Assembly: GCF_900188025.1 (NCBI RefSeq)
Contig: NZ_FZNO01000010.1
Location: 62,001 to 126,000 of the forward strand
Direction: 5' to 3'
From: Blastococcus mobilis
Lineage (GTDB): Bacteria; Actinomycetota; Actinomycetes; Mycobacteriales; Geodermatophilaceae
Length of the DNA stretch: 64,000 nucleotides
Both the position numbers and the translations under genes were made by a program. Positions within the stretch are counted from its first letter, which is position 1. The number at the start of each line of letters is the position of its first letter. The notes under the pieces were generated by a model. That model had not been told where the DNA came from. It saw nothing but the letters and a program-made list of their open reading frames with translations, and ran no database searches. This document shows positions 19,213-23,883 of the stretch, piece by piece.

Positions 19213-20718
19213 ATGAGCGTGCGGCGGGTCATGGGCACCGAGGTCGAGTACGGCATCTCGGTGCCGGGACAGCCGACCGCCAACCCGACGACGCTGTCCA
19301 GCCAGGTCGTCAACGCATGGGCGGTGGCCGAGGCCCCGACCCCGCGCCGTCCCCGCTGGGACTTCGAGGAGGAGAGCCCGCTCCGGGACGCCCGCGGCTT
19401 CGACCTGTCACCGGCGCAGGCGCTCGACCACAACGACCTGGACGAGGACACCGGGATGGCCAACGTCATCCTCACCAACGGCGCCCGGCTCTACGTCGAC
19501 CACGCCCACCCGGAGTACTCGACGCCGGAGGTCACCAACCCGCGCGACATCGTCCTCTGGGACAAGGCGGGGGAGCAGGTGATGGCGGAGGCGGCCCGGC
19601 GTGCCGCGCGCATCCCCGGCCAGCCGACCATCCAGCTCTACAAGAACAACACCGACGGCAAGGGCGCCTCGTACGGGTCGCACGAGAACTACCTGATGGA
19701 CCGGCGGACGCCGTTCATCGACATCATCCGCGGGCTGGTGCCGTTCTTCGTCACCCGGCAGGTGTTCGCCGGCTCCGGACGGGTCGGGATCGGCACCGAG
19801 GGGCGGACGCAGGGCTTCCAGCTGTCCCAGCGCGCCGACTTCTTCGAGGTCGAGGTCGGTCTGGAGACGACCCTCAAGCGGCCGATCATCAACACCCGCG
19901 ACGAACCGCACGCCGACGCCGACAAGTACCGGCGGCTGCACGTGATCATCGGTGATGCGAACCTGTCCGAGCTGTCCACCTACCTCAAGGTCGGGACGAC
20001 GGCGCTGGTGCTGGCCATGATCGAGGCCCGCGCGCTGCCCCGCGACCTCTCGATCGAGGAGCCCGTCGAGGCCCTGCAGGCCATCAGTCACGATCCCACG
20101 CTCACCCACAAGGTGCGGTTGCGCGACGGGCGCCAGATGACGGGGCTCGACGTCCAGCGGCTCTACCTCGAGCAGGCGGAGAAGTTCGTCCAGAACACCG
20201 GGGACGGCGACGAGCAGACCGCCGACGTGCTCCGCCGGTGGGCCGAGGTGCTCGACGACCTCTCCATCGACCCGCTGCGCTGCGCCGACCGGCTGGACTG
20301 GCCGGCCAAGCTGCGGTTGCTGGAGGGCTATCGGAACCGGGACGGCCTGAGCTGGGGCGATTCCCGGCTGCACCTGGTCGACCTGCAGTACTCCGACGTC
20401 CGGCCGGAGAAGGGGCTCTACCATCGGCTGGTCGCCCGCGGCTCGATGCAGCGCCTGCTCACCGACGAGGAAGTGGACCGGGCGATGGTCAACCCGCCGG
20501 GGGACACCCGCGCCTTCTTCCGGGGGGAGTGTCTCCGGCGCTATCCCGCGCAGGTGGCCGCGGCGTCCTGGGACTCGGTGGTGTTCGACCTCGGCCGGGA
20601 GAACCTCGTGCGGATCCCGACGATGGAGCCGCTCCGGGGCACCCGCGAGCACGTGGGCGCGTTGTTCGAGGCCACGTCGACGGCGCAGGAGCTCGTCGAC
20701 ACGATCACCGGGGGCTGA
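19213..20718 (+). CDS. dop: Pup deamidase/depupylase
   Basis: Dop deamidates the C-terminal Gln of Pup to Glu and also removes Pup from substrates. The 501-residue protein is a carboxylate-amine ligase homologue. It has the nucleotide/Mg motif GTEVEYGI at the N terminus and an inserted Dop-specific loop after residue 17 ([14 protein letters not shown]) that PafA lacks. [19 protein letters not shown] and [13 protein letters not shown] are shared with PafA. ATG 19213 lies 6 nt after TAGGGT. It is needed here because Pup ends in Gln. Confidence 0.96.
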
Positions 20719-20808
20719 TCGGAAGGTACTCGTCCGGCGGACGCGGAATGTCGGCCTCGGCGGGTAGCTTCAGCCCAGTAGCAGTCACGTGAAGGACCGG
20801 AGGGCAGC

Positions 20809-21018
20809 ATGGCCACCAGGGACACCGGCGGACAGCAGAAGGCCACGCGGACACGCGAGGAGGTCGACGAGGTCGAGGCCTCCGTCGACACCGAGACCGC
20901 CGAACGCCACAAGGAGATGACAGAAGACGTCGATTCCTTGTTGGACGAAATTGATGAGGTATTGGAGGAGAATAGCGAAGAATTCGTGAGACAATATGTA
21001 CAAAAAGGGGGTCAGTGA
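20809..21018 (+). CDS. pup: Prokaryotic ubiquitin-like protein Pup
   Basis: Pup is the 69-residue disordered tag that PafA attaches to substrate lysines. It ends GGQ, so Dop must deamidate it first. The central helix that threads into Arc is DSLLDEIDEVLEENSEEFV. GGAGGGCAGC precedes the ATG. The first half has normal high-GC codons, but from about 20930 the codons turn AT-rich (TTG, GAA, ATT, GTA, AAT, AGA, CAA, TAT, AAA) although the protein is conserved. The stop lies 12 nt before the HNH endonuclease. Confidence 0.97.
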   Translation: MATRDTGGQQKATRTREEVDEVEASVDTETAERHKEMTEDVDSLLDEIDEVLEENSEEFVRQYVQKGGQ

Positions 21019-21030
21019 ACAAGATCGTTC

Positions 21031-21807
21031 TTGTTTGCTGAAGTGAAAGAAAAGTATTGTCGTGATTGCGGTTTCAAGCGCCCGGTAGCTGACTTCTCTG
21101 CCAATCGCCGGTCTCGGGACGGGCTTGCCTTGTACTGCCGTGACCACCTGGCCGTACGGGCGGCGCGAAGCAGGGAGGCGCGTCGCGCAGAGCCGGTTCG
21201 CTACCGCAGCCGACCGCGCGAGCTGTCCGTCCCACCCGGTACCAAGTGGTGTCCCGATTGCGGGCACGTGAAGCCAGAGGCTGAATTCGCCCGCAGTCGT
21301 GCGTCTGCGTCGGGACTCGCCTCGTACTGTTTGCCGTGCCACAACGCCCGCGGCAAACGAAGCATTGAAAAGCGTGGCGGCAGTCGCACGTACCACTTGA
21401 CGCGCCGGTACGGGATAAGCGGCGAGGAGGCGGACGCGATGCTCGATGCGCAGGCCGGCTTCTGTGCGATATGCAAGACAGCGCCGGCGGTCCACGTCGA
21501 CCATGACCACGCCACCGGCGCCGTGCGGGCGTTGCTGTGCTTCAACTGCAACGGGGGCCTCGGGCAGTTCAGGGACGACCCGCAGCTGCTGCACGCCGCC
21601 GCGTACTACGTCCAGTTCCACACCATCCGTCAGCAGATGCAGGCCGAGCTCGACGCGACGGCCAGCCCGCCGGACGGGGCCAGCCGGCCAGGCGAGCCGC
21701 CGGTAGGGTCGCAACGACGCCCGGGAACCCGCAGCACCACCACGCGGAGCACCGGGCGGAACAGCGGGTCACGCCGGCGGACGCAGGCGGGAGAGGCGGA
21801 TGGGTGA
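21031..21807 (+). CDS. HNH endonuclease, recombination endonuclease VII family
   Basis: This 258-residue protein inside the proteasome operon is not itself a proteasome part. Two similar N-terminal zinc knuckles ([14 protein letters not shown] near residue 10 and [13 protein letters not shown] near 73, each closed by a further Cys pair) precede an endonuclease VII core. The core has CAIC (about 145), HVDHDHATG (about 155) and RALLCFNCN, giving four zinc Cys and the His/Asp catalytic cluster. The TTG at 21031 or GTG 21043 may be the start; neither has a good ribosome site. The gene overlaps prcB by four bases. The first 60 nt are AT-rich like the pup tail. I recall such genes next to pup in other actinomycetes. 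Its role is unknown. Confidence 0.85.
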
Positions 21808-22661
21808 GCGAGCAGTCGATCGGCCGGAGCGGGTTCCCGCCCGCCTATCTGGACCGGGTGGGCTCCTCGTTCACCGACTTCCTCGCGACGACCGCGCCTG
21901 ACCTCCTGCCCGGCCGCCGTCCGGTCCCGACGCTGCCGGTGGGCGACATCGCCCCGCACGGCACGACGATCGTGGCGGTCACCTACGAGGGCGGCGTCCT
22001 CATGGGCGGCGACCGGCGCGCCACCATGGGCAACCTGATCTCCTCCCGCGACATCGAGAAGGTCTACCCGGCCGACTCCTACAGCGTCATCGGCATCGCC
22101 GGCGCCGCGGGCATCGCCATCGAGATGGTCCGGCTGTACCAGGTCGAGCTGGAGCACTACGAGAAGATCGAGGGGCTGACCATGTCCCTCGACGGCAAGG
22201 CCAACCGGCTCGCCGCGATGATCCGCGGCAATCTCGGCGCGGCGCTGCAGGGCCTTGCCGTCGTCCCGCTCTTCGCCGGCTTCGACCTGGATGCCGCCCC
22301 CGGGACCATCCCCGGACGCATCTTCAGCTACGACGTCACCGGCGGGAACTACGAGGAGCGCGGCTACGCCGCCGTCGGCTCCGGCTCGTTGTTCGCCAAG
22401 AACTCGTTGAAGAAGACCTGGCGCACCGGCCTGCCGGCCGACGACGCCACGCGGACCCTGGTCGAAGCGCTCTACGACGCCGCCGACGACGACTCCGCCA
22501 CGGGCGGTCCGGATCCGGTGCGCCGGCTGTACCCGATCGTCTACCGCGTCGATGCGGAGGGAGCGGTACGCCTCACCGACGCCGAGGTGGCCGCCGTCGC
22601 CGACACCATCGTGAGCGAGCGGGCCGAGGCCGACCGCCAGAACATGGACCGGGAGGCCTGA
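21804..22661 (+). CDS. prcB: 20S proteasome beta subunit
   Basis: This is the proteolytic subunit of the 20S core. In 285 residues a 53-residue propeptide ends at HG, and the mature protein starts [11 protein letters not shown], giving Thr54 as N-terminal nucleophile. The catalytic Asp and Lys lie in MGGDRRAT and [19 protein letters not shown] and the [13 protein letters not shown] region are typical of the family. GTG 21804 overlaps the stop of the HNH gene and has GGGAGAGG upstream, so translation is coupled to that gene. Confidence 0.96.
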
Positions 22662-23529: not shown

Positions 23530-23883
23530 GTGCCGACCTACCGCATCAACGAGGACGGCGTGGCCCGGGCCCGGGAGCTGATCGACGCCGGGAAGGTCGA
23601 CGTCGACACGGAGTGGGCCGATGCCGCACCGTCGGCCGACGACGAGAACGCCGAGATCGAGAAGCACGGATACGACGGCTACGGCGCCTGGCACCTGGCG
23701 GTCGATGCGGAGGCGAACGAGGAGACCAAGAAGCGCTACGCCTTCCCGTACGGCGACTGGCCCGCTGCAGGGTCCCGCCGCGAGCCTGCGAGCGGTGGGG
23801 GGCAGAGGGTCCTTCTCCACGCGGAGATCGAGCAGGTCGCCGACGACCTGCTCCAGCACCTCGACGCCACCCGCCGGGGCTGA
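23530..23883 (+). CDS. Small conserved actinobacterial protein with repeat-derived core
   Basis: This 117-residue protein begins PTYRINEDGVARARELIDAG and continues with a conserved YGAWHLAVD and KKRYAFPYGDW. It matches a small actinobacterial family that, from memory, continues FRRVHRMGL after the GD motif. Here that part is replaced by AGSRREPASGGGQRVLL, encoded by a dispersed repeat of family R1 (about 23766-23816), and the frame then rejoins a family-like tail ADDLLQHLDATRRG. The product may be expressed but altered. The GTG start lies 6 nt after prcA. Function is unknown. Confidence 0.7.
   Translation: MPTYRINEDGVARARELIDAGKVDVDTEWADAAPSADDENAEIEKHGYDGYGAWHLAVDAEANEETKKRYAFPYGDWPAAGSRREPASGGGQRVLLHAEIEQVADDLLQHLDATRRG

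Follow-up and report, generated by a model that had tools for sequence, protein, structure and literature searches.

What is an endonuclease gene doing between pup, the bacterial ubiquitin-analogue gene, and the proteasome gene prcB, and why is the end of that pup gene rich in A and T? The window analysed here, a stretch of 64,000 nt of DNA from Blastococcus mobilis, holds a proteasome locus in the order arc, dop, pup, HNH, prcB, prcA, pafA, in which dop and pafA share the Pfam label Pup_ligase and were distinguished by their order. The features on which the argument depends are as follows.

20809-21018, forward strand: pup, 69 aa, ending in GGQ with stop TGA (PF05639, E 2.5e-28)
20911-21070, forward strand: AT-rich stretch comprising the second half of pup, the leader and the first HNH codons (GC 0.42-0.43; GC3)
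20980-21018, forward strand: type-linked tract, pup codons 58-69 and the stop, which travels with the HNH N-terminal module (per-codon association under within-genus permutation; identity drop in close pairs)
21019-21042, forward strand: leader from the pup stop to the HNH start, varying by type (read from the sequence)
21019-21034, forward strand: imperfect palindrome ACAAGATCGTTCTTGT in the leader (read from the sequence)
21043-21807, forward strand: Endonuclease VII-motif HNH gene, 254 aa (PF02945; homologous start; model pLDDT 85; alternative start TTG at 21031)
21043-21378, forward strand: N-terminal module with two four-cysteine (zinc-ribbon-like) repeats, the putative DNA-recognition part and the swapped unit (model, alignment, swapping in close pairs)
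21379-21621, forward strand: catalytic core, C141-C144, D153 H154 D155 H156, R162, C166-C169, N170 (conservation; T4 Endo VII and Hpy99I matches)
21622-21804, forward strand: C-terminal extension, mostly of low model confidence, reading through pup-prcB spacer DNA (pLDDT; similar ends on different types)
21704-21709, forward strand: TAGGGT within TAGGGTCG, a -10-like element 5' of prcB (conserved in family loci)
21804-22661, forward strand: prcB with a GTG start (PF00227, TIGR03690; sequence)

Pfam and the sequence agree with the first-pass annotation that an Endonuclease VII-type HNH gene lies between pup and prcB and overlaps prcB. It is a separate open reading frame between an intact pup and an intact prcB, with no intron or intein, its stop overlaps the prcB start in the GTGA at 21804-21807, and its product is the single match in its own 5.09 Mb genome. 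The same annotation had put the gene 12 nt after pup; its position stands and its start probably does not, since homologues start at the place equivalent to GTG 21043 (24 nt after pup), which is the more likely start than TTG 21031 (12 nt). An open frame of 117 aa between prcA and pafA (window 23530-23883) had no Pfam or NCBIfam match. From the comparisons below we conclude that the HNH gene probably encodes a locus-specific, free-standing homing endonuclease of the Endonuclease VII motif, which co-converts the 3' end of pup in Actinomycetes.

The HNH protein of the window matched PF02945 (Endonuclease_7) with an E value of 2.4e-22, and 89/89 members of its family matched the same profile. Across these 89 sequences, C141, C144, D153, H154, R162, C166 and C169 are invariant and D155, H156 and N170 are kept in at least 90%; the family carries the DHHRN catalytic motif (CX2-4C, DHDH, R, CX2C-N). 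The core spans residues 119-190 of 254 and follows an N-terminal module of about 115 residues, in which the structure model (pLDDT 85) places two four-cysteine repeats; the pLDDT is below 50 at residues 221-226 and 228-254. The best solved structural relative is Hpy99I (profile match E 7.3e-16, positions 67-193), and T4 endonuclease VII gave a structural match with Z 6.0 over 52 residues (model residues 117-171) at 46% identity. The Foldseek TM-scores against both are low (0.13-0.17 by query length) because the alignments cover only parts. Judged by motif position and the model, the HNH motif lies C-terminally as in the DHHRN endonuclease clade, unlike the N-terminal motif of the resolvase clade. 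The catalytic core is shared with T4 endonuclease VII, a Holliday junction resolvase, whose core is N-terminal, whereas that of the window protein follows the two cysteine repeats; neither the N-terminal motif nor the whole-length alignment of a T4-type resolvase was found.

Of the 112 Geodermatophilaceae genomes, pup was matched in 104 and HNH in 99. At 103 pup loci of this family (G070, with pup at a contig end, was left out), the HNH gene was full-length in 76, a fragment in 24 and absent from 3, where the fragment class includes a contig break (G019), a very weak match (G165, for which the genome scan gave none) and possibly draft errors (false frameshifts). The sample of the order had pup in 395 of 396 genomes; in its other families an HNH match was present in 11 of 56 genomes, not always beside pup, and 45 of the 56 had none. 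In the family coded f14, which we take as Micromonosporaceae because its leaders match named Micromonospora loci, 71 of 80 genomes had an HNH match somewhere, and the 72 loci comprised 42 full-length genes, 26 fragments and 4 without the gene. Class-wide, 29 of 118 genomes had a match, and pup was present at 23 of 28 loci across seven further family codes (the window's own genome and G124 were left out, and two loci came from G529). Patterns drawn from pup-side proteins found 206 relatives in named genomes, of which the best 80 all adjoin pup (80/80); these 80 include Geodermatophilus, Modestobacter, Klenkia, Micromonospora, Actinoplanes, Streptacidiphilus, Actinacidiphila and Actinomadura. 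This pup-side branch of Endonuclease VII proteins looks dedicated to one place in the genome. The start of the HNH gene usually lies from a few bases to some tens of bases beyond the stop of pup, and empty, occupied and decayed alleles coexist at the pup-prcB site in both families. The median dN/dS of same-type HNH pairs is 0.19 (377 of 652 non-independent pairs with dS 0.05-1.2), and by this measure intact copies are under purifying selection. This distribution bears on the suggestion of a homing event in the lineage of the window: a single event there does not account for a gene that is widespread beside pup with types that, as shown below, depart from the host phylogeny.

Mobile carriers were considered and rejected: 1552 phage records match and none covers 80% of the query, the 9 relatives on viral contigs are at most 51% identical, and none of the 18 plasmid matches covers 80%. 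The site itself shows further variation. At three loci (L076, L060 and L110, in G016, G020 and G019) a more divergent Endonuclease VII-type nuclease (35% and 28% identity in the two compared) occupies the same place after pup, so the site accepts distant relatives. At L327, L329 and L345 (G519, G529) a tandem pair of Endonuclease VII-type matches lies downstream of pup. In seven loci (part of genus g3, and G110) the gap between HNH and prcB is about 1450-1640 nt, and the four of these that were inspected (L061, L065, L051, L069) have opposite-strand open frames with hydrophobic segments between HNH and prcB.

The first-pass annotation also described an AT-rich end on a pup gene with a normal first half, and this is borne out. 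The GC content is 0.42-0.43 in windows 20920-21039 and 20980-21099, in surroundings of about 0.70, and the third-position GC (GC3) of pup drops from 0.91 (codons 1-34) to 0.51 (codons 35-69), the latter being the joint lowest with three others among 102 family pups. We measured the tail dip as the GC3 of the last 12 pup codons minus the front GC3. An AT-rich tail in relatives lacking the HNH gene had been named beforehand as the result that would overturn a homing reading, and such pups do not have it: the median dip was -0.39 beside an intact HNH gene (n=121) and -0.03 where none adjoins pup (n=29; four of these genomes, G172, G198, G272 and G365, have a match elsewhere). The Mann-Whitney p of 1.6e-14 for this comparison ignores relatedness and was set aside. 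The mean dip was -0.42 for HNH types A-D (n=55), -0.20 for type E (n=19) and -0.23 for type F (n=2); in Micromonosporaceae it was -0.38 for M1 (n=16) and -0.49 for M2 (n=26), and in HNH carriers of family f9 it was -0.23 (n=3). Without an adjacent HNH gene it was -0.01 in other families (n=22), -0.01 in Micromonosporaceae (n=4) and -0.13 in the window's own family (n=3). Loci with HNH fragments were intermediate (-0.28, n=24, and -0.32, n=26), as expected after loss of the gene. Since the dip accompanies the adjacent HNH gene and its type, it goes beyond chance. The tail of type E carriers is still fairly GC-rich (0.78 in the last 12 codons), which counts against homing and means that the recoding is not equally strong across types. 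The low GC of the tail need not mean foreign DNA, because where the GC3 of a genome is close to 1, nearly every synonymous change can only bring it down; synonymous escape in such genomes would explain the AT-rich signal without a foreign donor.

The N-terminal modules of the HNH proteins fall into types by clustering, and these types predict the end of pup. The linkage was tested by within-genus permutation in 63 of the 86 typed Geodermatophilaceae loci (those with a standard stop and a type represented by 4 or more loci). The third bases of pup codons 58, 61, 62 and 65-69 were predicted by HNH type (0/500 permutations each), codon 63 was reached by 1/500 and codon 64 by 6/500 permutations, and codons 59 and 60 had no third-base association with type in the same 63 loci. 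The last codon, the stop codon and the terminal residue were likewise predicted by type (0/2000 permutations each); for example, one type is CAA-TAG in 9/9 loci and another is CAG-TGA in 9/9. Among the 57 codons upstream, five (16, 22, 25, 29 and 47) were at 11-21/500 and none at fewer, so that the strong signal is restricted to codons 58-69, while the five weak upstream codons count against the homing reading. Whether Pup ends in Gln or in Glu changes within genera and tracks HNH type; this last residue matters because Pup ending in Gln must be deamidated, according to the accessible part of PMC8223512. At L006 (genome G008) Pup reads ...QKGGVELP followed by a stop near 1695-1720, probably because a run of G has gained or lost one base; this may be a sequencing error or a true change of the Pup C-terminus.

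Close relatives give the extent of the exchanged tract. We compared loci of the same genus with dop-side upstream identity of at least 0.90 (60 of 103 loci; pairs share genomes), and 16 of the 18 close pairs differed in HNH type. In these different-type pairs the mean identity was 0.92 upstream, 0.98 in pup codons 1-34 and 0.93 in codons 35-57, then 0.73 from codon 58 to the stop, 0.54 in the leader and first module, 0.56 in the second module, 0.71 in the core, 0.63 in the C-tail and 0.95 in prcB. The two same-type pairs had 0.81 from codon 58 to the stop and 0.74 in the leader and first module. The N-terminal zinc module, the leader and the last 12 pup codons with the stop therefore differ together between close hosts. 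G100, G101 and G102 share their core (0.88-0.93) and C-tail (0.96-0.98) and differ in the leader and first module (0.53-0.63), which places the end of the exchanged tract within the HNH gene. In Micromonosporaceae, 38 close pairs were taken at upstream identity of at least 0.92. Their different-type pairs (n=16) had 0.77 in the last 12 pup codons and 0.49 in the next 200 nt, their same-type pairs (n=22) had 0.84 and 0.79, and the remainder of pup was 0.96-0.98 in both. The same-type tail (0.84) is also below the rest of pup and near the different-type value, which counts against homing. The prcB identity of 0.78 in M1/M2 pairs was left out as an offset artefact of a fixed-distance window applied to types that differ in length. 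The left edge of divergence is thus the last 12 pup codons in both families. The type linkage and the identity drop in close pairs form a sequence signature of co-conversion. The claim that the gene homed into pup and replaced its 3' end is well supported at the sequence level, in that pups without the adjacent gene lack the AT-rich tail, the tail follows the HNH type and the tract begins near codon 58.

To place the types on the hosts, a codon-aligned dop tree was built with 83 of 102 Geodermatophilaceae and 68 of 72 Micromonosporaceae loci (the other 19 and 4 lacked a usable Dop match). The HNH types needed 38 changes on the 83-locus tree (shuffled mean 37.0, as low in 152/200) and the finer types 45 (44.6 shuffled), and genus needed 12 changes for 10 genera; on the Micromonosporaceae tree the 40 typed loci needed 13 changes (12.7 shuffled). 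A first dop tree, which was rebuilt because its alignment was poor (rows of ~1000 nt spread over 2426 columns) and some of its branches were very long, agreed with 48 changes against 49.7 shuffled, and 13 against 13.0 in Micromonosporaceae; type C7 clustered somewhat on it (as low in 16/500) and not on the codon-aligned tree. Judged against dop, the HNH types do not follow host phylogeny in either family. In 19 of 102 family loci a usable Dop match was absent from the fetched stretch upstream of pup. In the HNH gene tree the families are nearly separate, and no recent between-family transfer was seen in it. HNH exchange would then run among relatives whose flanks are homologous, which is what homing through repair would need. 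An operon gene of long standing that recombines would give a similar picture between families, and to that degree the near-separate families count against homing.

At the right side, the C-terminus of the HNH protein (about residues 194-254) reads through spacer that is common to different types and includes TAGGGTCG, which is translated there as PPVGSQRR. This element was present in 93 of 99 family loci, at a median of 97 nt before prcB, compared with a single match in 143,117 nt of upstream sequence; it followed pup in 4 of 22 other-family loci without an adjacent HNH gene and in 0/72 Micromonosporaceae loci. It resembles a -10 element and may be part of a promoter of prcB's own in Geodermatophilaceae. 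The RNA folding of 113 leaders had a mean z of -0.65, with about -1.5 in types C4 and M1, and a leader hairpin as a general control element was rejected on these z values as too weak to claim. Rfam returned five matches on 20500-22200 (E values as high as 5), none of which came near its gathering score. A displaced native pup end was sought downstream, and a peptide relic was found in 0/118 intact loci, which counts against homing; at the DNA level, mean relic scores were near those of shuffled sequence (17.9 vs 17.3; 18.4 vs 16.4), where true pup tails scored 48.9 on average and as low as 14.

Several other explanations have to be weighed against homing. The gene could be a host nuclease of the proteasome operon, for example for DNA damage, that is under diversifying selection while recombination swaps its N-terminal half and the pup end hitch-hikes. 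The fixed place beside pup across several families, the purifying selection on intact copies and the nearly separate families in the gene tree all fit such a role, but the gene is not full-length at 27/103 and 30/72 loci, is without a match in 45/56 sampled genomes of the other families of the order, and by itself leaves the left boundary in the last codons of pup and the synonymous recoding unexplained; we regard it as unlikely. A restriction-like or anti-phage nuclease with an exchanged specificity module would recall Hpy99I, the best solved relative, and PADLOC weakly matched 46 residues to a type II restriction enzyme (E 1.8e-7). However, the scan of eight window genes, the two flanking ones among them, gave no DNA methyltransferase, the best 80 of 206 relatives adjoin pup, and the linkage to pup codons would go unexplained, which makes this account improbable.

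The proposal that the HNH gene persists because its leader and tail couple pup to prcB, as a device of translation or regulation, draws on the GTGA overlap in the window, on inverted repeats in some leaders and on the somewhat stronger folding of type C4 and M1 leaders than of shuffles (mean z about -1.5). Against it, in many relatives some 50-230 nt separate the HNH stop from prcB, prcB has the conserved TAGGGTCG element in Geodermatophilaceae, decay of the gene is common, and leader folding is not generally significant. Coupling to prcB as the main reason for retention, also raised in the first-pass annotation, is weakened by the decay or absence of the gene in many relatives and by the promoter-like element, and we give it very little credence. 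Finally, the abundance of E, N, K and Q at the end of Pup brings total GC down, and the AT-rich tail could be an artefact of the codons or amino acids there that has nothing to do with the HNH gene; yet HNH-less pups encoding nearly the same residues show no third-position dip and the dip tracks HNH type within genera, so that this account is hardly credible.

A homing endonuclease would act as follows. The zinc repeats would recognise the region of the pup stop in alleles that do not carry that type, and the core would cut near the stop of these other-type alleles. Repair from the element-bearing chromosome would copy in the module, the leader and the recoded pup end, and the converted allele would keep a working Pup while losing the target, being protected by the recoded end. 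Competing types would repeat this cycle of cutting and repair.

Such an element is related to known systems and departs from each. F-CphI of cyanophage S-PM2, of the proposed DHHRN family, is alike in having the Endonuclease VII motif (CX2C, DHDH, R, CX2C-N) on the C-terminal side and in being free-standing beside a conserved gene, and it differs in being phage-encoded and in that a group I intron in psbA prevents self-cleavage, as given in the accessible part of PMC6083498; the pup-side gene is in a bacterial chromosome, has no intron, and its putative protection is the synonymous recoding of the pup end. The seg and mob endonucleases of T-even phages are also intergenic genes with co-conversion of flanking sequence, but they are GIY-YIG or classical HNH enzymes of phage genomes that cut hundreds or thousands of bp away, according to the available text of PMC2988022, whereas the replaced tract begins about 36 nt before the pup stop; titles in the reference list of that source name endonucleases replacing one another at one place. 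Mobile ORFs in fungal mitochondria (atp6, atp9, cox2, nad3) place an endonuclease 3' of a replaced, mostly synonymous gene end, but are LAGLIDADG or GIY-YIG elements with the native end downstream (PMC3630166, in the portion available), whereas at pup the relic of a native end was found in 0/118. Hpy99I (3fc3) has the Endonuclease VII-type core after a cysteine-repeat segment and is a restriction enzyme; 12 of 13 Helicobacter sequences adjoin a methylase in the accessible part of PMC6083498, and no protective methyltransferase was found among the eight scanned window genes. The pup-side HNH gene differs from known free-standing homing endonucleases in its place, its putative protection and the absence of a relic end.

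A description of an HNH gene between pup and prcB was not found in the openly accessible literature searched. The gene numbering of Streptomyces coelicolor presumably leaves a gene between prcB and pup. The word 'nuclease' is absent from the pupylation papers PMC2588565, PMC3511204 and PMC8223512, and 'homing endonuclease' in two Streptomyces reviews refers to WhiA.

Beyond homing itself, we suggest tentatively, at somewhat less than even chances, that incompatible HNH types compete for the pup end, each with its own zinc module and a recoded, self-resistant pup end, and displace one another non-transitively. Such a race may keep the diversity of types family-wide, drive the silent evolution of the last 12 codons and flip Pup between its Gln and Glu forms, as a natural 'home-and-rescue' drive. 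If the homing reading is true, a selfish nuclease edits the bacterial ubiquitin-analogue gene in many Actinomycetes, which would explain the odd silent divergence of the last codons of pup and part of the Gln/Glu polymorphism at the last residue of Pup. Dozens of natural pairs of module and target would make a recognition code for Endonuclease VII-type homing testable from existing genomes, and the locus would be a counterpart in nature of those synthetic drives that cleave an important gene while supplying a recoded version of the cleaved part.
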